A stretch of 43,972 bases of DNA from a virus. Where the stretch lies: the IMG/VR virus record IMGVR_UViG_3300031227_000107, positions 1-43,972 of that record. The stretch is one strand, 5' to 3'. This document shows, in pieces, positions 8,322 through 19,848 of this stretch (position 1 is the stretch's first letter; each line of letters opens with the position of its first letter). The position numbers were made by a program, and so were the translations under genes. The notes under the pieces are model-generated. The model was not told where the DNA came from. It did no database searches and saw nothing but the letters and a program-made list of their open reading frames with translations.

Positions 8322-9548
8322 ATGGCAGAAAAATTAGTATTACCTGATGGTAAAAAAATTCTTACAAGAGACTTTACAAATGTAATAAAAAGTGTCGATG
8401 TAAATAAACGTCAAATAGTTATGCGGGGAACAGATGAGACTGTAGATAGACAAGGTGAAGTAGTAATGATGAGTGGTTGGGATCTTAAGAATTATCTTAA
8501 GAATCCAGTATTTCTTTGGGCTCATGATTATGGTAGTGTACCTTTAGCTGCAGCTAGTAAAGTTATTAAGAAAAAAGGTTCAGATCCTCATTTGTTATTT
8601 TATTTAGATTGGCCTACAAAGGAATTATTTCCTTTTGCAGATATGATTCTTAATTTATACCAGGAGAAAATAATTAATGCTTCTTCAGTAGGATTTTTTC
8701 CATTAAAGTCTGAGAATATGGATGAAGATGCAGAATCTTATTGGGCTCCACAGAGATATTTAAAGCAAGATTTGCTTGAGCTTTCAGGTTGTGCTGTTCC
8801 TTGTAATCCAAATGCTGTTCAGAGTGCTGTAAAAAGTATTGGTGGGATAAAAGCATGGGTAGAGTATATTATAGGTGAGCAAAAGCATATGTCTGCTCCA
8901 GATAATGCAGATGATATTTTAGAAGAGGTGGATAAATTGAGACAAAATGTTGAGTTTATAGATGAAACAAAGAAGACACAAGTAGTTATTGATGGTAATA
9001 AAGATGAAGTTTTTGAAACAAGTAAGAGCGAAGAAGTTAAAGCAGTTGAAGAAGTTCTAGTTAATCCTAATGGGAAATTTGATGAAGATTCTCATTATAC
9101 AAAAGTTGAAAATTCAGATGAGTTAATTGAGGAACTAGAAAAAGATATAACAGAAGAGGAGATTAAAGAAATTGATGAGGAAGATGCTGTAGTAAGAGAT
9201 GCTGAAAAAGCTATGAGTTTAGATTATGAAATAGAAGTAAATGGGAATCCTGTAGAAGATTTTAGAATGGAAGAGTTTGATATTGAAGATAATTCAGGGA
9301 TTAAAATTTACGTTAATTATAAGGAAGTAGAAGTGGAAGATGAAGTTAATTCTTCAGTGGAGTCCTTGGATGATAAATCCATAGAGGACAAATGCACAGA
9401 GGAGGATATAACTAAATACAAAGCAACACTATTTCCAGAGAAAGCTGAAGTAGAGAAAGAAATTGAAGGTAAGCTTACGTCTGAAGAGATTACAAAGCTT
9501 ATTCCTTTGGTTAAACAAGTAGAACAAGTAATAAAGGATAATATATAA
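8322..9548 (+). CDS. Prohead protease with acidic scaffold-like C-terminus
   Basis: Residues 1-175 form an S78/U35-type prohead protease with the expected blocks: FLWAHDYG (H68), ASSVGF (S122) and LLELSGCAVPCNPNA (E153). It should cut scaffold and the capsid N-terminus during maturation. Residues about 195-408 are strikingly acidic and low in complexity, rich in E, D, V and I. This is consistent with a fused scaffolding domain, since no separate scaffold gene is seen between protease and capsid. AAAGGAG precedes the ATG. The stop overlaps the capsid start by one base (TAATG), which suggests coupling. Confidence 0.85.
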   Translation: MAEKLVLPDGKKILTRDFTNVIKSVDVNKRQIVMRGTDETVDRQGEVVMMSGWDLKNYLKNPVFLWAHDYGSVPLAAASKVIKKKGSDPHLLFYLDWPTKELFPFADMILNLYQEKIINASSVGFFPLKSENMDEDAESYWAPQRYLKQDLLELSGCAVPCNPNAVQSAVKSIGGIKAWVEYIIGEQKHMSAPDNADDILEEVDKLRQNVEFIDETKKTQVVIDGNKDEVFETSKSEEVKAVEEVLVNPNGKFDEDSHYTKVENSDELIEELEKDITEEEIKEIDEEDAVVRDAEKAMSLDYEIEVNGNPVEDFRMEEFDIEDNSGIKIYVNYKEVEVEDEVNSSVESLDDKSIEDKCTEEDITKYKATLFPEKAEVEKEIEGKLTSEEITKLIPLVKQVEQVIKDNI

Positions 9549-10870
9549 TGGAAGACCTATTTAAAAAGAATGCAGAAGGAGAGTTTGTTCCTGTTGAAGC
9601 TGAGATTAAAGATAAGGATGTGAACATAATTACTTCTTCAAGTAAAAGTGAGTATGACCAGTTGAAAGACGGGCTTGATGGTATTGTGAATGCTGTTAAT
9701 ACGAATGGTGCTATGAAGCAGTTGCAGGAAGAGATGAAAGAGCAGAATGCAAAGTTTGAAGAGTTTAAGAAGGGTGGTTTTTCTATGCCCTCTAAACAAG
9801 AAGATGTAGATGATGTTGCGCAGAAGTATTTTACAAAGCATAATATTGATATGGCTTATCAAGGTAAAATGTTGCAGGATAAAGTTAAGCATCCTGGTTA
9901 TCAGATGAGTGAAGAAAAACGTGTATACTGTGCGGAGTGGATGGCTCTTGCTATTAAAGCAGCTAGTGGTGATTATCGGGCTAGAGAAATTATGGAAGGT
10001 AAGTATAAAACTGCTATTGGGGATTCAGGGAATGATGATCTTCCTATTCCAGATCCAGTACAGGTTGAGATTATGAAGTATGCTTATGAAGAGTCAGTTG
10101 GTTTGCAGGATTGTGAAGTTGTATCTATGAAGTCTGAATTTAAAACTTATCCAAGAGAGACTGCTGGTGTAACTTTTGCATGGAGTAATACTACTCCAGC
10201 AAGTGATCCTACACTTGATGAAGTTAAGTTGACTTGTGAGGAAGTATCAGCCTATTCAACTGCTCGTAATATGACGCTTGCTGATTCACCTTCTGATCTT
10301 GTTGGTTGGTTATTTGGGATTATGAGTAATGGTCTTGGACAGGAGATAGATGATCAGTTGTTTAATGGTACTGGTTCTCCTAATAGTGGGTTATTTACTG
10401 CTAAAACTGGTTATTCTGTAAATATGGGCACAGGAAGTACTTCTTTTGCAGATGTTTCAGATGTTGAATTTTCAAAAATGATAGCTGCTCTTGATGGCAA
10501 AAGAAAACGGAATGCTAAGTTCTATATGAATGGGGAAATTCTTCACTATGTTAGAACTCTTAAAGGTACTACAGATATGCCTATTTTTGTAGAGTCTGTT
10601 GGTTCTCCTGTTCCTGGTGCAATTTATGGTAAACCTTATAAAGAAGTAGTTGTTGCTCCTAGTACAGATGCTGCTGCTACTGCCTTTGTTTATTTTGGTG
10701 ATTTGAAGAAAACCTACATTGGGAAACATATAGATTCATTAGCATTCACTACTAACACTCAGGGTGATACAGCGTTTAAAACTAACCGTACCTTGTTTAA
10801 ATTGTATGGGCGATTTGCAATTGAAAATGGGTTGCCTAATGCAGGTGTTAGATTGATTACTGCTGCTTAA
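9548..10870 (+). CDS. Major capsid protein, HK97 fold
   Basis: The product has 440 residues. The N-terminal 130 or so are charged and helical (LQEEMKEQNAKFEEFKKGG), as in the scaffold-like delta domain that the prohead protease removes. The rest follows the phage capsid family: a P-domain helix around QEIDDQLFNGTGSPNSGL, a GKRKRNAKFYMNGE block and a C-terminal FGDLKKTYIG...AFKTNRTLFKLYGRFA block. It sits directly after protease and is followed by a GC-rich hairpin, as expected for a highly expressed gene. The cleavage site cannot be fixed by eye. Confidence 0.9.
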   Translation: MEDLFKKNAEGEFVPVEAEIKDKDVNIITSSSKSEYDQLKDGLDGIVNAVNTNGAMKQLQEEMKEQNAKFEEFKKGGFSMPSKQEDVDDVAQKYFTKHNIDMAYQGKMLQDKVKHPGYQMSEEKRVYCAEWMALAIKAASGDYRAREIMEGKYKTAIGDSGNDDLPIPDPVQVEIMKYAYEESVGLQDCEVVSMKSEFKTYPRETAGVTFAWSNTTPASDPTLDEVKLTCEEVSAYSTARNMTLADSPSDLVGWLFGIMSNGLGQEIDDQLFNGTGSPNSGLFTAKTGYSVNMGTGSTSFADVSDVEFSKMIAALDGKRKRNAKFYMNGEILHYVRTLKGTTDMPIFVESVGSPVPGAIYGKPYKEVVVAPSTDAAATAFVYFGDLKKTYIGKHIDSLAFTTNTQGDTAFKTNRTLFKLYGRFAIENGLPNAGVRLITAA

Positions 10871-10930: not shown

Positions 10931-11887
10931 ATGATAGTTAATATTACATGTATGAAGTGTGGGCAAAGTGTTAGGGCTAAAAGTGGAACAACAAGAACAT
11001 TAACCTGTCAGTCTTGTGGTTGTACTGATGTTAAATTTTCATCTGATGCAGTCGTGCATTGTGTTAATTGTAAAGAACCTTATATACATATGAAAAATAA
11101 TATTTTTCGTAGTGTGTGTAAAAAATGCCATAAAGGGTTATGGACTATTACTTCTTTAGTAGAATATCAAGACGTAGCAATGGAGATAGAAGAAAATATT
11201 TCTCCAGAGGATGTAGTTTTAAGTAATGCTGTTTCAGCAGTGGTTGTATGTCATAATTTAGAAGGTATGACTGTAGATTGTATTGATAAGTTAAGAAAAG
11301 TTCCAGAAATTAAAGAAATTATACTTGTTGATAATGGTAGTATTGAACCTATTGGTAAATGGGCTAAGAAACAAAAGGATATTGTATATATACGAAATGA
11401 AACTAATCTCGGTCCGGCTGTTGCTAGAAATCAGGGAGTAAAGAAAGCTTTTAATGATTGGTTATTTTTTATAGATAATGATCAAATGGTTTCAAAAAAT
11501 GTTATAAGTAGAATGGCTAAAGAAAATAAAGATATTGTTGGTATTGAAGCTTGGCAGTTGGATGCAAAGGGAACACCTTCTCCTTCAACAAGCACTATAG
11601 AATTTAATACCTATGTTGGTACTGGTGGGATGCTTATTAAATCAAGAGTATTTAAAGCTATTGAGGGATTTGATGAGCAGTATGCTCTGTGGTATGAAGA
11701 TACAGATTTATGTCTTAGAGCAAGACAACGTGGATATGAGATAGGTTGTATTGCAAATCATAATGTTCAGCACTTAGAACATAGGACTATGAATACACAA
11801 AAGACCTTTAATAGTAGTAAAGAAAAACAAGTAAGTAGAAAATTGTTTGTTAAACGTTGGGGTACTTATCTTAAAGCAGGAAATTAA
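10931..11887 (+). CDS. GT2-type glycosyltransferase with N-terminal double zinc ribbon
   Basis: Residues 1-70 carry two CxxC...CxxC modules (C7, C10, C26, C29 and C44, C47, C63, C66). Residues about 100-310 form a GT-A family 2 domain: SAVVVCHN entry, LVDNGS, NLGPAVARNQG, the metal/nucleotide-binding DND (182-184) and WYEDTDLCLRARQRGY near the base. It should transfer a sugar from a nucleotide-activated donor and resembles rhamnosyltransferase-type enzymes. Zinc ribbons on a GT2 are unusual and may bind the protein acceptor. GGGAGG precedes the ATG. It is the first gene of the cassette. Confidence 0.82.
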   Translation: MIVNITCMKCGQSVRAKSGTTRTLTCQSCGCTDVKFSSDAVVHCVNCKEPYIHMKNNIFRSVCKKCHKGLWTITSLVEYQDVAMEIEENISPEDVVLSNAVSAVVVCHNLEGMTVDCIDKLRKVPEIKEIILVDNGSIEPIGKWAKKQKDIVYIRNETNLGPAVARNQGVKKAFNDWLFFIDNDQMVSKNVISRMAKENKDIVGIEAWQLDAKGTPSPSTSTIEFNTYVGTGGMLIKSRVFKAIEGFDEQYALWYEDTDLCLRARQRGYEIGCIANHNVQHLEHRTMNTQKTFNSSKEKQVSRKLFVKRWGTYLKAGN

Positions 11888-11899
11888 GGGAGTAATATA

Positions 11900-12847
11900 A
11901 TGAAAGTTTTAATTACGGGAATAAATGGGTTTGCGGCTTCACATCTTGCTAGATTTTTATTAAATAAGGGATATGAAGTTCATGGTACAATAAGAGTAAG
12001 ATCTGATTTGCATAGAATTAAAGATATTGAAGATAAAGTAAAACTTCATCTTGTAGAATTATCAGACACTATTTCAATAACTAATCTTATAAACACAGTT
12101 ACACCTGATGAGATATATCATCTTGCAGCACAAAGTTATGTTAAATCTTCTTGGACTTCGCCTATTGAGACATATACTACTAATGTATTAGGAACTGTAA
12201 GTTTGTTAGAAGTTATTAGACAAAGTGCAAAACCGTTTGTTAAAGTATTAGTTACATCTACTTCAGAGGTGTATGGTGATCAGAAAGGTACACTTAATGA
12301 AGATACTCCTCCAACCCCTAATACTCATTATGGTATAAGTAAATTAGCTCAAGATATGATTGCTAGATTATATGTTGGAGCTTATAAAATGAATGTCATT
12401 GTTACTAGGTCTTTTAATATTACTGGAGCAGGAAGAGCAGACGTTTTTGTAGATAGTAATTTTTGTAAACAAATAGCAGAGATGGAAAAGAGGGATGATC
12501 CTTTAAACAGTATTTTACGGCATGGTAATTTAGAAAGTGCTAGAGATTTTACAGATGTGCAGGATGTTGTAGAGGGGTATTACTTAGCAATGAAAGAGGG
12601 TATTTCTGGAGAAATATATTGTTTTTGTAGAGAAGAGGCAACGAAGATTCAGGATCTTTTGGATCTTATGCTTAGAAATGCAAAAATCTCAATACAAACA
12701 GAGGTTGATCCAGAGAGGTTTAGACCTGTGGATACGGCAGTTATGTTAGGGGATTGTACAAAGGCAAAGGCTTTAGGTTGGAGAGTTACAGTACCTTTAG
12801 AGCAATCTATAATTGAACTTCTTAATTATTGGAGAGACAGGGTATGA
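11900..12847 (+). CDS. Extended SDR, GDP-4-keto-6-deoxymannose reductase/GMD-like
   Basis: The Rossmann motif is TGINGFAASHL (G7, G10). HLAAQSYVKSSW, STSEVYG (S122, E123) and YGISK (Y144, K148) give the catalytic set. The FNITGAGRADVFVDSNF block, GNLESARDFTDVQDVV, DPERFRPVD and the closing GW...YWRDR resemble RMD (GDP-6-deoxy-mannose reductase) more than GMD, which has FNHESPRRG. It should act on a GDP-4-keto-6-deoxy sugar, with the host supplying GDP-mannose and perhaps the 4,6-dehydratase. The stop overlaps the next start (ATGA). The choice between reductase, epimerase-reductase and dehydratase is not certain. Confidence 0.8.
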   Translation: MKVLITGINGFAASHLARFLLNKGYEVHGTIRVRSDLHRIKDIEDKVKLHLVELSDTISITNLINTVTPDEIYHLAAQSYVKSSWTSPIETYTTNVLGTVSLLEVIRQSAKPFVKVLVTSTSEVYGDQKGTLNEDTPPTPNTHYGISKLAQDMIARLYVGAYKMNVIVTRSFNITGAGRADVFVDSNFCKQIAEMEKRDDPLNSILRHGNLESARDFTDVQDVVEGYYLAMKEGISGEIYCFCREEATKIQDLLDLMLRNAKISIQTEVDPERFRPVDTAVMLGDCTKAKALGWRVTVPLEQSIIELLNYWRDRV

Positions 12848-13917
12848 TATCATTAGCCACATCAAAAGTTACTCAGGCTGTAAGAGACAATATAGAAGAT
12901 TGTTTAAATGAAAATAGAATAGGGCAGGGTAGGTTTAATAAGGAATTTGAGGACCGTGTAGCTGCTTATATGGGGGTTAAACATGCTATAGCAGTATGTA
13001 ATGGTTCTATGGCTGATATAGTGGCTCTGGGAGCTCTAAAGGCCAAGTATCCCGATAAGGATGAAGTGATTGTTCCTGCTTACACTTTTATAGCTCAAAC
13101 TAATGCTATTCTTATTAATGGTTTGAAGCCTGTGTTTGTGGATGTAGAGAAATGTGATTTTCAACTTAATCATGTGCAAGTTGAGAAAGCTATTACAGAT
13201 AAAACTTTATGTATTTTTCCTGTGCATTTATTTGGTAGAGATTGTTATATTGATGCTCTTTTAGATATAGCTATTGACTATGACCTTCCTGTAGTAGAAG
13301 ATTGTTGTGAAGCTTATGGTGGGCAAACAGAGACTAAACAGAAATTTGGTACATTTGGTGATTTTGGTACATTTTCATTTTTTCCATCTCATACAATTAC
13401 TACTGGTGAAGGTGGTATAATAATTACAGATGACGATGAGTTGTCTGGAATAGCCAGACAAGTGGCTAATCATGGTAGACGAGGAAATAATATATTAGAT
13501 AAGTTTCATTTTGATGTTTTTGGATATAATGGTAAAATGAGTAATGTATTAGCTTCTATAGGTTGTGCTGTAGTTGATAGTGCTGATGAAGTTATTGAAA
13601 AAAGACAAAAGAATGTAGATTTATATAATAAGCTGTTAAATAAATATTGGTATGCAGAAAGTCCTCATTGTTATCCTGTTGTGTGTGAGAGTGAGATACA
13701 AAGAAATACTATATTACAGGTATTAGAAAGTAATGGTATTGAAGCTAGAAAGGCGTTTTCATGTTTACCCACGCAAGAAAAAGTATATGCTAATTTTGGT
13801 GGAAAGTATCCTATAGCAGAAGAGTTAGGTAAAGTAGCACTTTTTGTTCCAGTACATCAAGACCTTTCAGAAAAAGATATTATAAAAATTTGTAATGTAA
13901 TTAAAAAGTGTTTATAA
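12844..13917 (+). CDS. DegT/DnrJ-fold PLP enzyme with His for the catalytic Lys: probable sugar 3-dehydratase (ColD-like)
   Basis: The fold-type I sugar aminotransferase family is clear: VCNGSMADIVALGAL, DEVIVPAYTF, VVEDCCEAYGG (PLP-binding D153) and FGDFGTFSFFPSHTITTGEGG. Aminotransferases of this family have Lys six residues before GEGG. Here that position is His183 (codon 13390-13392). His there is known from ColD and the E1 enzymes, which remove the sugar 3-hydroxyl to make 3,6-dideoxyhexoses. No E1-type iron-sulfur cysteine set is evident and length (357) is nearer ColD. The ATG at 12844 overlaps the SDR stop. With the RMD-like neighbour this suggests a colitose-like GDP sugar. An inactive aminotransferase is the alternative. 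Confidence 0.8.
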   Translation: MISLATSKVTQAVRDNIEDCLNENRIGQGRFNKEFEDRVAAYMGVKHAIAVCNGSMADIVALGALKAKYPDKDEVIVPAYTFIAQTNAILINGLKPVFVDVEKCDFQLNHVQVEKAITDKTLCIFPVHLFGRDCYIDALLDIAIDYDLPVVEDCCEAYGGQTETKQKFGTFGDFGTFSFFPSHTITTGEGGIIITDDDELSGIARQVANHGRRGNNILDKFHFDVFGYNGKMSNVLASIGCAVVDSADEVIEKRQKNVDLYNKLLNKYWYAESPHCYPVVCESEIQRNTILQVLESNGIEARKAFSCLPTQEKVYANFGGKYPIAEELGKVALFVPVHQDLSEKDIIKICNVIKKCL

Positions 13918-13926
13918 TGGAGTTAT

Positions 13927-14565
13927 ATGTATTACTATGATATTGGGGATTATGAAATATTTTTTAATCCAAGATGTGCATTATCTACTATAAGGGAATG
14001 GGGGATAGGAATAAGAAAGAAAGGGATTCCTTCTATATTTGATGCTGCTCCTTCTATATTTGATTGGCCTTATAAAATGGCACTTACGACAGAACGAGAA
14101 AAAGTACTAGTTATAAGAAATCCAACAGAAAGATTTATTTCCATACTGAATCATGTTATTGTATTTGAGTGTGTAAATAATCTTGATACTAAAGCAAGAG
14201 TACCTTTATTTTTAGATGTGTTAGAAAAAGATGGGTTAAATTTTAATGATCATTTAAGATTGCAATGTAGATTTCAAGATAATTCTGAGTTATATAAAGT
14301 AGAAAATCCTAGTAAATATTTTGATCATATATTGAGATTAGAAGATGGGAATTTAATAGAGCGGTTAAATACATTAACTGGATACTTAAGTGAAGACATA
14401 TATGTAAATACAACTCAAGAAAAAATAGATTATCCAGAAAATTATTTTTATGATTATACAAAAATGGAGTTTATTACTAAGGAGGATATAACAGAGGAGA
14501 TGTTACAAAGGATAAAGAAGTTATATTATTATGATTATAAACATTTTTATCCTGAATTACTTTGA
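13927..14565 (+). CDS. Probable sulfotransferase (family 2-like)
   Basis: The product has 212 residues. An early FFNPRCALSTIREW stretch (residues 12-25) lies where sulfotransferases have the PAPS 5'-phosphosulfate loop. LVIRNPTERFISIL (residues 61-74) matches the 3'-phosphate-binding VRNPxxRFxS motif of carbohydrate sulfotransferases. LRLED follows at about 140. The rest is charged and unassigned. It would move sulfate from PAPS onto a glycan hydroxyl. The loop departs from the usual PKxGxTS, so the call rests mainly on the second motif and on the neighbours. GGAG precedes the ATG. Confidence 0.6.
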   Translation: MYYYDIGDYEIFFNPRCALSTIREWGIGIRKKGIPSIFDAAPSIFDWPYKMALTTEREKVLVIRNPTERFISILNHVIVFECVNNLDTKARVPLFLDVLEKDGLNFNDHLRLQCRFQDNSELYKVENPSKYFDHILRLEDGNLIERLNTLTGYLSEDIYVNTTQEKIDYPENYFYDYTKMEFITKEDITEEMLQRIKKLYYYDYKHFYPELL

Positions 14566-14599
14566 TGAATAATTTATACTAAAGAGAGGTATATGGGGT

Positions 14600-15382
14600 A
14601 TGGTAAATCTTATAGTGTTTTCTAAAAATAGACCAATGCAGTGTCAAGCGTTATTAGATAGTGTTGCGCTTCATACAAGTATTTTTGATAATATTGATGT
14701 ACTATATTACTCTGATGAAGAGTATGAAATAGGGTACTCTTTATTAAAGAGTAGAAAATCAGATGTACATTTTTATAGAGAAGTAGGAAATTTTAAAGAA
14801 GTACTATTACCTTTATTTAAATATGATTATACTTGCTTTGCTGCAGATGATGATATTGTGTATGGTGATTTTGATAAAGAGTTATTTGTAGCTTTTTTAG
14901 AAAGGGCAGTTTGTTTTTCATTAAGATTAGGAGAGAATATAGATTACTGTTATTCTAATGATAAACCAAATAAATGTAAAACAAAAGATGTGTATGATAA
15001 TAAATTTGTAGTATGGGAATGGAAAAAAGAAGAGTTAGATTTTGGTTATCCCTTGTCCGTAATTTCTCATATATTTAGAACTAAGGAAATAGAAGAATTA
15101 AGTAAATTAGATGAGTATCAAAACCCTAATGTATACGAGGGGGTATTACAGCAGCATCTAAATAAGATACAACCCTATATGGTATCTTATAAGGAAAGTA
15201 AAGTGTTTGGTGTACCTGCAAATAGAGTAAATGTTTCAGCACCTAATAGGAATGGTTTAGAATACCCCTATAGTGTAGAAGAACTTCAGGGGATGTATAT
15301 AGATGGTAAAATAATAGATGTAGCAAATATGGTGTATGATATTCATGCAGCACAGCAGGAAATTAAATATGTCTTTGCATAA
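14600..15382 (+). CDS. GT-A-like glycosyltransferase
   Basis: The product has 260 residues. It opens LIVFSKNRPMQCQALLDS, an entry typical of GT-A transferases, and has a DDD triplet (83-85, CFAADDDIVYGDF) where the metal-binding DXD should be. The last third includes SVISHIFRTKEIE and NRVNVSAPNR. The family number is not certain. It may modify a polysaccharide or protein with a nucleotide-sugar donor. GAGAGG at 14584-14589 favours the ATG at 14600. It overlaps the next gene by 14 bases. Confidence 0.65.
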   Translation: MVNLIVFSKNRPMQCQALLDSVALHTSIFDNIDVLYYSDEEYEIGYSLLKSRKSDVHFYREVGNFKEVLLPLFKYDYTCFAADDDIVYGDFDKELFVAFLERAVCFSLRLGENIDYCYSNDKPNKCKTKDVYDNKFVVWEWKKEELDFGYPLSVISHIFRTKEIEELSKLDEYQNPNVYEGVLQQHLNKIQPYMVSYKESKVFGVPANRVNVSAPNRNGLEYPYSVEELQGMYIDGKIIDVANMVYDIHAAQQEIKYVFA

Positions 15383-16007
15383 GATATTTACTTATTGGGA
15401 AGGACCAAAACCAGAGTATATAGGGATGTGTCAAGATAGTTTGAATAAACATTGTAGAAATGATTTTGAAATTTTTAATTTTTGTGATTGCCATAACCCT
15501 AATAATTTAAAGATTAATCATAAAGTAGATGTATTAAAGGCAAATTTAGTTTTAGAGAATGGTGGGTTTTGGATAGATGCAGATATGATTGTTATGCAGA
15601 GTTTATTACCGCTTATAAAATTAGTAGAAAGACATGGCTTTATAGGTTTTCCTGGATTTTTTGGAGCTAAAAAAGGAAATAGATTACTTCAGGATTGGGT
15701 AAAAGCAATGGATAAAATTGTATCTACAGAGCTTTCTTTTGCAGATCTTATTCAGCCTTTACTTAGTAATAAGAAGTATAAAGGATATCAATACTTAACA
15801 AGGGAAATGAGTACTCCTATTTGGCATACAAGAGATGAGTTTTGGAAATTATTTAAAGATCTTCCTTTAAAAGAGTATGTTACAAAAAAGACATATGTTT
15901 TTACATTATACAACTCACAGTTTAGTAAAGAATTTAAAGAAATGTCACGGGAAGCAATCCTAGAAAAGGATTGGCTAATATCAAAAGTATTTAGGGAGTC
16001 GCTATGA
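15369..16007 (+). CDS. GT32-like (DXD, capsular/mannosyl-type) glycosyltransferase
   Basis: From ATG 15369 the product has 212 residues and starts HKIFTYWEGPKPEYI. It contains the family block VDVLKANLVLENGGFWIDAD with the DxD at D70-D72, characteristic of the sugar-binding DXD region shared by GT32 and capsular polysaccharide enzymes. An upstream in-frame ATG at 15336 would lie deeper in the previous gene. CAGGAA upstream of 15369 favours the shorter form. It ends in a 4-base ATGA overlap with the next gene, which suggests translational coupling. Confidence 0.7.
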   Translation: MSLHKIFTYWEGPKPEYIGMCQDSLNKHCRNDFEIFNFCDCHNPNNLKINHKVDVLKANLVLENGGFWIDADMIVMQSLLPLIKLVERHGFIGFPGFFGAKKGNRLLQDWVKAMDKIVSTELSFADLIQPLLSNKKYKGYQYLTREMSTPIWHTRDEFWKLFKDLPLKEYVTKKTYVFTLYNSQFSKEFKEMSREAILEKDWLISKVFRESL

Positions 16008-17371
16008 AACTATGTAGTGTAATTTGTTCTTATAATGCACCGGAATTAACTGATAAAGTATTTCAGCAACTATTAAAGAATATTCCACATGATATATTTA
16101 TATTAGAGAATAGTTCTGATGTAAATAAAATGTACACTAAGGGTAGTGTAATTGATTTAGGTAGAGAGAATATTGGTTATGGTGGGATGAAGGATTATAT
16201 GTTTAAAAATTTTGGTCATTATGATTGGGTAGGAATGTTTAATAATGATGTATATGATATTCCAGAAAATTATATAGAAGTTTTAATGAAGTATATGAAA
16301 AAAGATGTAGGTATTATTTCAAGTGCTATTCAAGATAATGGTACTGGATGGAATTATATGAAAAAGAAAGGTAATTACCATCGAGAAGTTGAATCGGTAG
16401 AAGATATGGCAGCATTTTTTAATACTTCTTTATTTTCTGAAATGCAAAAATATTCACCTTATCAGTATTATGGGGTTGTAGATATTCAGGAAAGTATGCT
16501 TTATAAAAAGCATGGATATAAACGTTTAGTAGTAGATGAATTATGTATAGGCCATATGCTTTCTGGTGGTAGAGAAGCTGCAGGAACAAAAGAGGAATAC
16601 TATAGTAATACTGTAAGAGCTACTAATGATTGGCATGATGACTTTCTTGATCTTAAAGAACTATATGATGATTATTATTTTAAACGACATGAAACTCTTT
16701 CAGTAATTACTCCTCATTATAATCATAATGGATGTTTACGAGATGCATTATTAAGTATTATTAATCAAGAAACAAAATTTAATGTAGAAATGATAGTAAT
16801 AGATGATTGTTCAGATGTAGATCCATATGATAGTATTAAAGATTTGCCTATAAAATATATAAAAAATAAAAAGAATGTGGGTTTAGCAGCTACTAGAAAT
16901 GTGGGGATAGCTGCTTCAAGTGGAGAGTTTATATTACCCTTTGATGCAGATGATCAATTATTACCTGGGGCATTGCAGAAGTATTATGAAGCTAAAAACA
17001 AAGGGGATATTATTTATGGTAATCTTCTTTGGATGGGTAGTGAAGCCCAATTAAAACCAAGAGTTCCCATTGATAAAGAGTATTTTATTACTGATAATCA
17101 ACTCTCTGCTACTTCTATGTATACTAAAGAAGTTTGGAAGAATATAGGTGGTTATTGGGTAAAAAAGACAGGTAGTAAGGAGCACTATGAAGATTGGGAT
17201 TTTTGGGGTAGGGCTGCAGCATTAGGTTATGATTTTTATTATGTAGATTATAATATGTATCTTTACAATGGATTACCAGATGGTATGTGTGCTAGAGTAG
17301 GAAAAAATAGAAAAGAGAATGTTAAAATATGTACGGACCATATAAAAAAGTTTAAAAAGAGTTTAAAGTAA
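16004..17371 (+). CDS. Tandem two-domain GT2 glycosyltransferase
   Basis: Two GT-A domains lie in one 455-residue chain. The first (1-215) opens SVICSYNAPELTD and has NND at 80-82 (MFNND). The second (about 231-450) opens LSVITPHYNHNGCLRDAL and has VIDDCS, NVGLAATRNVG, DADD (314-317) and a HYEDWDFWGRAAALGY block. The second is a complete classical family 2 domain. The first is more divergent. Such double enzymes may add two sugars in turn, as chain polymerases do. The gene ends 10 bases before the tRNA-Pro, and the cassette resumes after it. Confidence 0.78.
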   Translation: MKLCSVICSYNAPELTDKVFQQLLKNIPHDIFILENSSDVNKMYTKGSVIDLGRENIGYGGMKDYMFKNFGHYDWVGMFNNDVYDIPENYIEVLMKYMKKDVGIISSAIQDNGTGWNYMKKKGNYHREVESVEDMAAFFNTSLFSEMQKYSPYQYYGVVDIQESMLYKKHGYKRLVVDELCIGHMLSGGREAAGTKEEYYSNTVRATNDWHDDFLDLKELYDDYYFKRHETLSVITPHYNHNGCLRDALLSIINQETKFNVEMIVIDDCSDVDPYDSIKDLPIKYIKNKKNVGLAATRNVGIAASSGEFILPFDADDQLLPGALQKYYEAKNKGDIIYGNLLWMGSEAQLKPRVPIDKEYFITDNQLSATSMYTKEVWKNIGGYWVKKTGSKEHYEDWDFWGRAAALGYDFYYVDYNMYLYNGLPDGMCARVGKNRKENVKICTDHIKKFKKSLK

Positions 17372-17381
17372 TAAAGTATTT

Positions 17382-17454
17382 CAGTGTGTAGCTCAGTTGG
17401 TAGAGTGCTCCCCTTGGACGGGAGAAGCCGGTAATTCAAGTTTACCCACACTGA
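17382..17454 (+). tRNA. tRNA-Pro (anticodon UGG)
   Basis: The fold is a complete cloverleaf. A perfect 7-bp acceptor stem (CAGTGTG/CACACTG) is followed by a D arm with GTTGGTA loop. The anticodon stem CTCCC/GGGAG has loop CTTGGAC (anticodon TGG), and the T stem GGTAA/TTACC has loop TTCAAGT. C1-G72 with discriminator A73 are the known bacterial proline identity elements. The 3' CCA is not encoded (CAA follows), so it must be added by the host. It reads CCA and other proline codons, and sits between two glycosyltransferase genes in the same direction. Confidence 0.93.
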
Positions 17455-17477
17455 CAACTAAAAATGGGGGGTAGTTT

Positions 17478-19256
17478 ATGGAGAATAAATTAAAGCTTGC
17501 ATGGGGTATTTTTTCAGATAAACGTTTAATTGGTAATGGTTATGGCTATAGGATGCATAATGAGCACTTGTATGAGGCACTAGATAAACTAGTAGATTTT
17601 GATGGTGATGCAGAGCATGTAGTTACAATAACATCTCCTGAATTTTTTACTCCTATACCAGATAGAGATAATTGGTTGTTTACAATGTTTGAAGGAACTA
17701 TACTACCTAAAGTGTATAAAGATGGAATTAGTAAAGCAAATTATTTATTAGTCCCTTCAACATGGGTTAGAGATTTATTTGGTAGATGGTTTGATAAAAA
17801 TAGAATATTTGTAGTACCTCATGGTATAGATAAAGATTTTACTTTAGTTAATAGGGGTTATCCAAAATTTGTGCCTTTTAGGTACTTGTGGGTTGGGGCA
17901 GCTAATCCTCGTAAAGGCTGGGTAGAAATAATTGCAGCGTGGGATTCAGTATTCAGTAAAGATAGCACTACTGAATTATATCTAAAGACAACTTCTGTAG
18001 AAGAGTCTAAAGAATTAGCCGAGAAGTTTGATTTTCAGCATATAGAAGAAGGTATTTGGAAAAAAGATAATGTTATCCTTGATGCTAGGAATGTTTCCGA
18101 AGAAGAGCTTGTTAAGTTGTATCATGATGCACATTGCTTTGTATTTCCTTCTAGGGGAGAAGGGTGGGGCATGACACTAGGGGAAGCTATGGCAACAGGT
18201 TTGCCTTGTATAGCCACTAATTTTTCAGGACACACAGATTTTTTTAATAATTTAAATGGATATCCTATTGGTTACAGTTTGAAAACTGCTAATATGACTA
18301 TGGCCGGAGTAGAAGTTGGAGATAGGGAAAGATCACATACTACAGTTTGTGCTTATCCTGATGTACAGGAGCTTATTGGAGCAATGATTTATGCTAGAAT
18401 ACATTACAATGAGTCATTAGCATTAGGAAGAGAAGCTTCAAAAACAATGAAAAATTTCACTTGGGGAGCTTCAGCTAGAACATTAATAAATATTATAAAA
18501 ACTCATGGTGGAGATAAAGAAAAAAATCATAAAACAGTGAATGTTGATCGTAATCCTGCTAAGAGAAAAGTAATGACTTTTACAGGATATAAAAGACCAA
18601 AGTACACACAACAAGTAATTGATGGATTAAGAAGCTGTGATGGTATAGAAGATTATAAATTATTCGCTAGACTAGAACCAGGATATCCTGAAGTAGTAGA
18701 TGTTATAAAATCTATTAATTTTATGGAATGTGAGTATATTATAAATGATTGTAGATTAGGGTGTAATGATAATTATTACCAAGCACTTTCTAGAGGATTT
18801 GAGGCAGGAGATTTTGTAGTTCAGGTAGAAGATGATACGGTTCCTACTAAAGATTTTTTAAGGTATATGGAATGGGCTCAAGAAAAATATAAAGATGATA
18901 AAGAAGTATTTACTATATGTGGATATAACAAGATAGATAAATATGATTCAGCAACTTCTCATGATGCATTTAAGAATCCTTGGTTTACTCCTTGGGGTTG
19001 GGCTACATGGGCTGATCGTTGGAAAGAGATTGAGAAGCAATGGGATTCTGAATTAGGTAAATCTTGGGATATCTTTATGAATGAAACTATGCGTAAAGAT
19101 AGATATGAGATAAGACCTACTTTAGGTAGAATACAAAATGTAGGTGCAGAGGGTGGAGAATTTTGTCCAAGTAAAGAGTTTCATGAAGCTAATCAGCTTA
19201 ATAAGATTTGGGCAGGAACAGAAGAATATGAACAAGGTGTTTGGAAACTAGTATAA
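17478..19256 (+). CDS. GT4 (GT-B) and GT2-like (GT-A) fusion glycosyltransferase
   Basis: Residues 1-345 are a GT-B family 4 enzyme: a VPHGID turn, GAANPRKG, and the E-x7-E donor site PSRGEGWGMTLGEAMATG (E228, E236) followed by ATNFSGHTDF. Residues about 365-592 are a second transferase with a GT-A look: VMTFTGYKRPKYTQQVI entry, VVQVEDDTVPTKDF (EDD 451-453) and FTPWGWATWADRW, as in enzymes related to GNT-I and phage/host HlpA-like transferases. One chain thus carries two transferase folds. A GGGGG-containing leader follows the tRNA. It is the last gene of the cassette, and the connector starts 10 bases later. Confidence 0.8.
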   Translation: MENKLKLAWGIFSDKRLIGNGYGYRMHNEHLYEALDKLVDFDGDAEHVVTITSPEFFTPIPDRDNWLFTMFEGTILPKVYKDGISKANYLLVPSTWVRDLFGRWFDKNRIFVVPHGIDKDFTLVNRGYPKFVPFRYLWVGAANPRKGWVEIIAAWDSVFSKDSTTELYLKTTSVEESKELAEKFDFQHIEEGIWKKDNVILDARNVSEEELVKLYHDAHCFVFPSRGEGWGMTLGEAMATGLPCIATNFSGHTDFFNNLNGYPIGYSLKTANMTMAGVEVGDRERSHTTVCAYPDVQELIGAMIYARIHYNESLALGREASKTMKNFTWGASARTLINIIKTHGGDKEKNHKTVNVDRNPAKRKVMTFTGYKRPKYTQQVIDGLRSCDGIEDYKLFARLEPGYPEVVDVIKSINFMECEYIINDCRLGCNDNYYQALSRGFEAGDFVVQVEDDTVPTKDFLRYMEWAQEKYKDDKEVFTICGYNKIDKYDSATSHDAFKNPWFTPWGWATWADRWKEIEKQWDSELGKSWDIFMNETMRKDRYEIRPTLGRIQNVGAEGGEFCPSKEFHEANQLNKIWAGTEEYEQGVWKLV

Positions 19257-19266
19257 GGAAAAGCTC

Positions 19267-19848
19267 ATGTTTGTGGATTTTACCGATTTAAAATTGGAAA
19301 TGGGAATAGCTAAAATTGAGCACGGTGATGAGGAGATTCTTAATTGGTTAGCTACTATGATTGTAGAGATGTGGGATGATCTAACTAACCGTACATGGGC
19401 TACTACAGCCTATACAGCAGAGATACATAGCACTAATGGTAATCAGTCTATTTTTAGTACAGATAACTACCCTATTACTGCTATAGCTGATATTTGGGAT
19501 GATCCTAATTGGGAGTATCCAGATAGTGACAAACTAGATGCCAGTACGTATGATTTTTCATATGATGCTGGTTCAGGTATGATTTATTCAGATACTCTTT
19601 TTTTAAAAGGACCAAGAAATATTAAAATTAGTTACACTGCAGGGTACACAGATACTAATGTACCTAAATGGTTAAAGCAGTTATTAATTAGACAAGCTTG
19701 TCACTGGTTCCATCAAAGGAATGAGCAGACTTGGCATAGAGCTTCTAAGGCATTACCTGATGGTGGTGTAGTTACTTTTAATACATTGAAAGCTAATTTA
19801 CTTCCAGACTTTATGTATTTTGCAGATTTTCATAGGAGAAGAGGATAG
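19267..19848 (+). CDS. Head-tail connector (HK97 gp6-like adaptor)
   Basis: The product has 193 residues. It begins with a helical region of the gp6/gp15 adaptor type (FTDLKLEMGIAKIEHGDEEILNWL...VEMWDDLTNR), followed by the typical beta section with YPITAI and the KISYTAGYTDTNVPKWLKQ segment that precedes a helix in this family. It binds under the portal to complete the head. It is the gene normally found directly after capsid, so the 8.3 kb cassette separates it from its usual neighbour. It overlaps the next gene by one base. Confidence 0.78.
   Translation: MFVDFTDLKLEMGIAKIEHGDEEILNWLATMIVEMWDDLTNRTWATTAYTAEIHSTNGNQSIFSTDNYPITAIADIWDDPNWEYPDSDKLDASTYDFSYDAGSGMIYSDTLFLKGPRNIKISYTAGYTDTNVPKWLKQLLIRQACHWFHQRNEQTWHRASKALPDGGVVTFNTLKANLLPDFMYFADFHRRRG

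Follow-up and report, generated by a model that had tools for sequence, protein, structure and literature searches.

A predicted nucleotide-sugar 3-dehydrase with histidine at the catalytic lysine position, encoded in a sugar cluster beside a phage capsid gene

Genes between the major capsid gene and the head-tail adaptor

The window – the whole 43,972-nucleotide stretch of virus DNA analysed here, IMG/VR record IMGVR_UViG_3300031227_000107 – contains a cluster of sugar-related genes at 10931–19256, flanked by the major capsid gene and the head-tail adaptor gene (Table 1). Two of the genes in this cluster, for an RMD-like SDR and a DegT-family protein, are joined by the ATGA overlap that a sequence-only reading of this DNA had pointed out. 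The same 4-nt overlap between SDR and DegT genes is found in a related phage, L131, which also has the downstream glycosyltransferase set in common with the window. The DegT ORF starts with ATG, and an alternative TTG start lies 15 nt upstream in an open frame. Phage aminotransferase-like proteins already have a group of their own, PHROG 3139. A sister record of the same phage (L002, a 60-kb contig) is nearly identical to the window; its DegT protein differs by one amino acid, and this one nonsynonymous change is too few for any inference about selection.

Other features of the cluster include the first ca. 75 residues of the upstream GT2 glycosyltransferase (10931–11150), which are rich in CxxC pairs and zinc-ribbon-like. 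The ORFs at 14600–15382 and 15336–16007 overlap by 47 bases (15336–15382) when longest-ORF starts are used, and the second may start later. A gene for tRNA-Pro (tgg) is located at 17382–17455, inside the cluster between two glycosyltransferase genes.

Table 1. Features of the sugar cluster and its flanking genes, in window coordinates
Feature	Position	Strand	Remarks
Major capsid protein	9548..10870	+	Directly upstream of cluster; PHROG 10, 3.5e-32
GT2 glycosyltransferase, Cys-rich N-terminal extension	10931..11887	+	PF00535 4.9e-20
RMD-like extended SDR	11900..12847	+	Predicted NDP-4-keto-3,6-dideoxyhexose C4 reductase; best PDB match RMD 2pk3
ATGA shared by the DegT start and the SDR stop	12844..12847	+	Translational coupling likely
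His-type DegT/DnrJ/EryC1/StrS protein	12844..13917	+	357 aa; predicted PMP-dependent nucleotide-sugar 3-dehydrase (alignment, Pfam, trees, AlphaFold model)
Motif SFFPSHTITTGEGG	13375..13416	+	Residues 178–191; Ser182-His183 replaces aminotransferase Asn-Lys
Sulfotransferase-like protein	13927..14565	+	PF03567 2.1e-5; PHROG 3347
Protein without Pfam match, glycosyltransferase-like by context	14600..15382	+	Homologue in L131 cluster
Probable DXD sugar-binding glycosyltransferase (weak)	15336..16007	+	PF05704/PF04488 below cut-off; similar sequence in L131
GT2 glycosyltransferase	16004..17371	+	PF00535 1.1e-29; similar sequence in L131
Two-part glycosyltransferase, GT4 then GNT-I-like	17478..19256	+	PF13692, PF03071
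Head-tail adaptor	19267..19848	+	Directly downstream of cluster; PHROG 442, 1.3e-10

A histidine-type DegT protein and its third clade

The DegT protein matches the PF01041 profile over its full length (E 1.1e-88). The claim that it has histidine where aminotransferases of this family have the Schiff-base lysine was borne out by two alignments: phmmer placed His183 (codon at 13390–13392) in the catalytic Lys column of GDP-perosamine synthase (3bn1), and MAFFT placed it in one column with the His of ColD and the His of E1. The key pair of residues is Ser182-His183 in the window protein, Ser187-His188 in ColD, Ala-His in E1 and Asn-Lys in the perosamine synthase PerA. PDB entry 3gr9 has the sequence of a ColD mutant with Asn-Lys at the Ser187-His188 positions, as in PerA, and this double mutant reportedly became an aminotransferase. 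Alignment with ColD shows that Asp153, Ser178 and Asn229, the counterparts of PLP-site residues in the ColD structures, are retained.

A lysine elsewhere in the protein could in principle fill the catalytic role. The sole invariant Lys of the clade, Lys231, aligns with Lys in E1 but with Arg in both PerA and ColD, and therefore no alternative Schiff-base lysine is visible; none is conserved at a suitable place in the alignment. An AlphaFold model of the protein (pLDDT 95.6) was matched by GDP-perosamine synthase (Z 47.7), E1 (Z 45.8) and ColD (Z 44.0), in a family range of Z 43–48. Judged by this model, fold alone does not separate the functions of these three enzymes.

A missing catalytic lysine often marks a pseudoenzyme, and the protein could be a dead or moonlighting aminotransferase homologue, or could still transaminate with His, as SpnQ can when its reductase is absent (PMC8987622). 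We consider this quite improbable – the residue is His, and no random one, in every close relative, including sequences 35–57% identical, the remaining PLP-site residues are conserved, and the His has an apparent single origin with that of ColD and E1.

Viral relatives were collected with search patterns placed outside the motif region. In this motif-independent scan every relative at least 36% identical has His, which argues that His183 is not due to chance; more distant relatives are a mixture of His and Lys types. In a 48-row tree, unrooted and of modest sampling like the others, one side of a single branch held all 34 of the His-type rows, including ColD and E1 (support 100/97). Without the motif columns and the long-branch rows, the support for this branch was 99/99. 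A quick later tree with eight sequences added still had only one label change, and in this larger tree two divergent His-type rows (L254 and L205) left the deepest forks open. Given a single label change in the trees, the His most simply arose once, apparently in common to ColD, E1 and the phage clade.

These trees place the window protein in a third clade beside ColD and E1, mostly viral in membership. The kinship to ColD and E1 proposed earlier thus holds for the shared His and the shared side of the tree, while the protein is an orthologue of neither. In constraint tests, whose groups were defined once the first tree had been inspected, a joint clade of the phage proteins and only the ColD-type rows was rejected (p-AU 7.2e-5), as was an independent K-to-H change within the perosamine-synthase group (p-AU 9e-4).

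Alignment also showed that E1's Cys251, Cys253 and Cys261 are absent from the phage clade. Only the equivalent of C193 is present (C155 in the window protein), and this Cys, next to the PLP-binding Asp, is also found in ColD-type proteins. Four basal members of the clade (L134, L136, L143 and L144) have a CxCx2C...C loop at the position of the E1 loop, and its absence from the phage clade suggests that the loop was lost there and that the enzyme works without iron. The loop of the basal members is what favours an E1-like mechanism for the window protein, in which an iron-sulfur cluster and a distinct reductase take part; with three of the four cysteines (C193, C251, C253, C261) missing from the phage clade and the one that is left shared with ColD-type proteins, this was rejected as extremely improbable.

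The same four basal members adjoin genes for a GHMP kinase, a GmhA-like protein or a TPP enzyme, a hint of heptose or branched-sugar substrates. In another relative (L166, 282–2387, minus strand) the His-type DegT is split by a 268-aa intein (EDA|intein|CESFG), inserted immediately ahead of the conserved Cys that neighbours the PLP-binding Asp. The intein matches Pfam Hint_2 (4.9e-7), with Intein_splicing slightly below its cut-off, and an HNH endonuclease ORF (1009–1542) lies entirely inside it in a different reading frame.

The partner SDR and a proposed pathway

In the ranking of PDB matches to the SDR, RMD (2pk3) had 215 bits, GDP-D-glycero-D-manno-heptose 4,6-dehydratase 177 and GMD 127. 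The dinucleotide motif is GINGFAASH, compared to GxxGQDG in GMDs, and the protein is outside the GMD clade (support 100/100) in the tree. RMD (2pk3), 6x3b, 7us5 and the phage SDRs fall in one group of the tree, whose branching does not settle whether the window SDR goes with RMD or with GDP-heptose 4,6-dehydratase. A reading of the SDR as a true GMD is not supported by the motif, the clade or the TIGR01472 score (161 bits against a cut-off of 415).

The SDR might instead be a 4,6-dehydratase of GDP-mannose or GDP-heptose that supplies the substrate, with the last C4 step left to the host or to a gene that escaped recognition. PF16363 is its top Pfam family, its second PDB match is the heptose dehydratase named above, and it retains the dehydratase-type Thr-Ser-Glu, all of which are consistent with this role. 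However, RMD leads the PDB matches by 38 bits, the motif is GxNGF and not GxxGQDG, true GMDs form a separate clade, and the dehydratase Glu is replaced by Gln in the SDRs of relatives L129 and L140. For these reasons a dehydratase is unlikely and a reductase more likely. The RMD-like SDR and the His-type DegT are paired in five phages: the window, L131, L139, L129 and L140.

The explanation we favour, with a probability of roughly 0.6, is that a PMP-dependent 3-dehydrase and the SDR make a GDP-3,6-dideoxyhexose, which is attached most likely to a virion protein. C3 deoxygenation by the DegT protein is likely, and a GDP-3,6-dideoxyhexose is a reasonable product to propose. We infer substrate, reaction, product and acceptor alike. 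The sequence-only reading had predicted that the sugar is GDP-linked, that it loses its C3 hydroxyl and that the enzyme is paired with an RMD-like SDR; these three points are supported by the phylogeny, by the residues of the active site and by the conservation of gene order.

By analogy to the reaction of ColD and E1, reviewed in PMC8987622, the substrate would be a GDP-4-keto-6-deoxyhexose, most likely the GDP-4-keto-6-deoxy-D-mannose that host GMD makes, and PMP would form a Schiff base with it. His183 would take the C4' proton of the cofactor and the C3 hydroxyl would leave, after which hydrolysis of the intermediate would give GDP-4-keto-3,6-dideoxyhexose and ammonia. Glutamate would regenerate PMP from PLP, in a ColD-type cycle with no iron-sulfur partner. 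The coupled SDR would reduce C4 with NAD(P)H to give a GDP-3,6-dideoxy-D-hexose, which would be of tyvelose-type configuration provided that the SDR works as RMD does. Glycosyltransferases encoded downstream would attach the sugar, most likely to a virion protein from the same late operon.

The 60-kb sister record, which is possibly a fragment, yielded no GMD, and the host would therefore have to supply the substrate. A GMD gene adjoins a close DegT relative in L132. GHMP (heptose-type) kinase genes are found near the bacterial and basal members of the clade, and therefore the substrate may be a heptose.

Capsid setting of the relatives and comparison with known systems

All ten phages of the clade that were checked, the window and nine others, have a major capsid gene in the same region as the His-type DegT. 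Their capsid proteins belong to seven PHROG families: phrog_10 (the window and L016), 1328 (L131), 1357 (L129, L140 and L184), 267 (L132), 9953 (L139), 1005 (L142) and 212 (L080). The recurrence of the DegT gene among head genes of phages with such different capsids suggests, and so favours, glycosylation of the virion.

The same enzyme chemistry could serve a different acceptor, the O-antigen or capsule of the host, with an altered host surface that blocks other phages, for example. Dideoxyhexoses are classic O-antigen sugars (PMC8987622), and some phage glycosyltransferases have been suggested to act on LPS (PMC10980836). Against this, the cluster sits among capsid and connector genes across phages with different capsids. 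Four records, which may be incomplete, yielded neither an integrase nor a resolvase, and thus lysogenic conversion is not favoured. We regard a host-surface role as somewhat unlikely compared with attachment to the virion. In L139 an ORF rich in Ser/Thr repeats (2238–2816) lies beside the cluster; it may be a glycan acceptor or merely low-complexity sequence.

In L132 (5525–8593) three consecutive genes encode a His-type DegT, a true GMD and a Lys-type perosamine-synthase-like DegT, a possible natural pathway to GDP-3-deoxyperosamine. In PDB 3dr7, GDP-3-deoxyperosamine is bound to a perosamine synthase. This trideoxy sugar was reportedly described by Cook and Holden in 2008 (cited in PMC6124807), and L132 would be a natural counterpart.

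A broader and more tentative proposal, to which we give rather less than even odds, is that a third, mostly viral 3-dehydrase lineage evolved in capsid-linked operons, and that phages build GDP-dideoxy or GDP-amino-trideoxy sugars (GDP-3-deoxyperosamine in L132) to coat the virion. If so, tailed phages make rare deoxy sugars themselves, beyond transferring those of the host, and do so with sugar synthesis genes placed beside the capsid gene repeatedly in phages with different capsids. The glycan composition of the virion would be testable gene by gene, and the clade would be a source of new enzymes for GDP-3,6-dideoxyhexoses.

Viral His-type dehydrases are common – a motif scan found the E1 type in at least 120 viral contigs. 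Phage-borne enzymes of this kind are not unusual in general, and one is annotated in Synechococcus phage S-CAM7. What seems new here is the third clade, the missing Fe-S loop, the RMD-like partner and the recurrent place beside capsid genes. A search of the full text of open-licence PMC papers found no report of a dideoxy-sugar module next to capsid genes in phages.

In mycobacteriophages, phage glycosyltransferases modify capsid and tail-tube proteins, according to Freeman et al. 2023 as cited in PMC11600133, and this makes a virion role plausible for the window cluster. That account describes glycosyltransferases and an O-methyltransferase, to which the window adds a predicted nucleotide-sugar deoxygenase pair.

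Among characterized enzymes, GDP-perosamine synthase (PerA; 3bn1/3dr7) is the closest solved structure by sequence (187 bits) and by fold (Z 47.7), and has the same substrate class as that proposed for the window protein. It differs in having Asn-Lys rather than Ser-His at the two key positions and in falling on the Lys-type side of the tree. E1 (AscC/DdhC/RfbH, the CDP-4-keto-6-deoxyglucose 3-dehydrase; 3bcx) has the same His, the same side of the tree and a similar fold (Z 45.6–45.8), but the window protein is ca. 80 residues shorter and retains only one of the four Fe-S cysteines, and E1 acts on a CDP sugar together with a reductase, unlike the proposed enzyme. ColD (WbdK, the GDP-4-keto-6-deoxymannose 3-dehydrase of colitose synthesis; 2gms/3b8x/3gr9) likewise has His for Lys, the preceding Ser, no Fe-S loop and a GDP-sugar setting (fold Z 44.0), though their structural alignment shows only about 29% identity and they belong to separate clades.

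The partners differ as well: that of ColD, ColC, is a GFS-type epimerase/reductase, while that of the window protein is an RMD-like SDR. RMD itself (GDP-6-deoxy-D-lyxo-4-hexulose reductase, 2pk3), the top PDB match at 215 bits, has the GxxGF motif in common with the window SDR, and the catalytic stretch is TSTSEVYG in the phage protein compared to IGSSEEYG in RMD. The DegT proteins of Synechococcus phages S-CAM7 and ACG-2014f (L124 and L126) are annotated as E1-like or hypothetical, though they are of ColD type by tree. The sugar clusters of these phages combine this His-type DegT with a GMD, a GFS-like SDR and glycosyltransferases, but there the ColD-type enzyme has a GFS-like partner, whereas the partner in the window is RMD-like.
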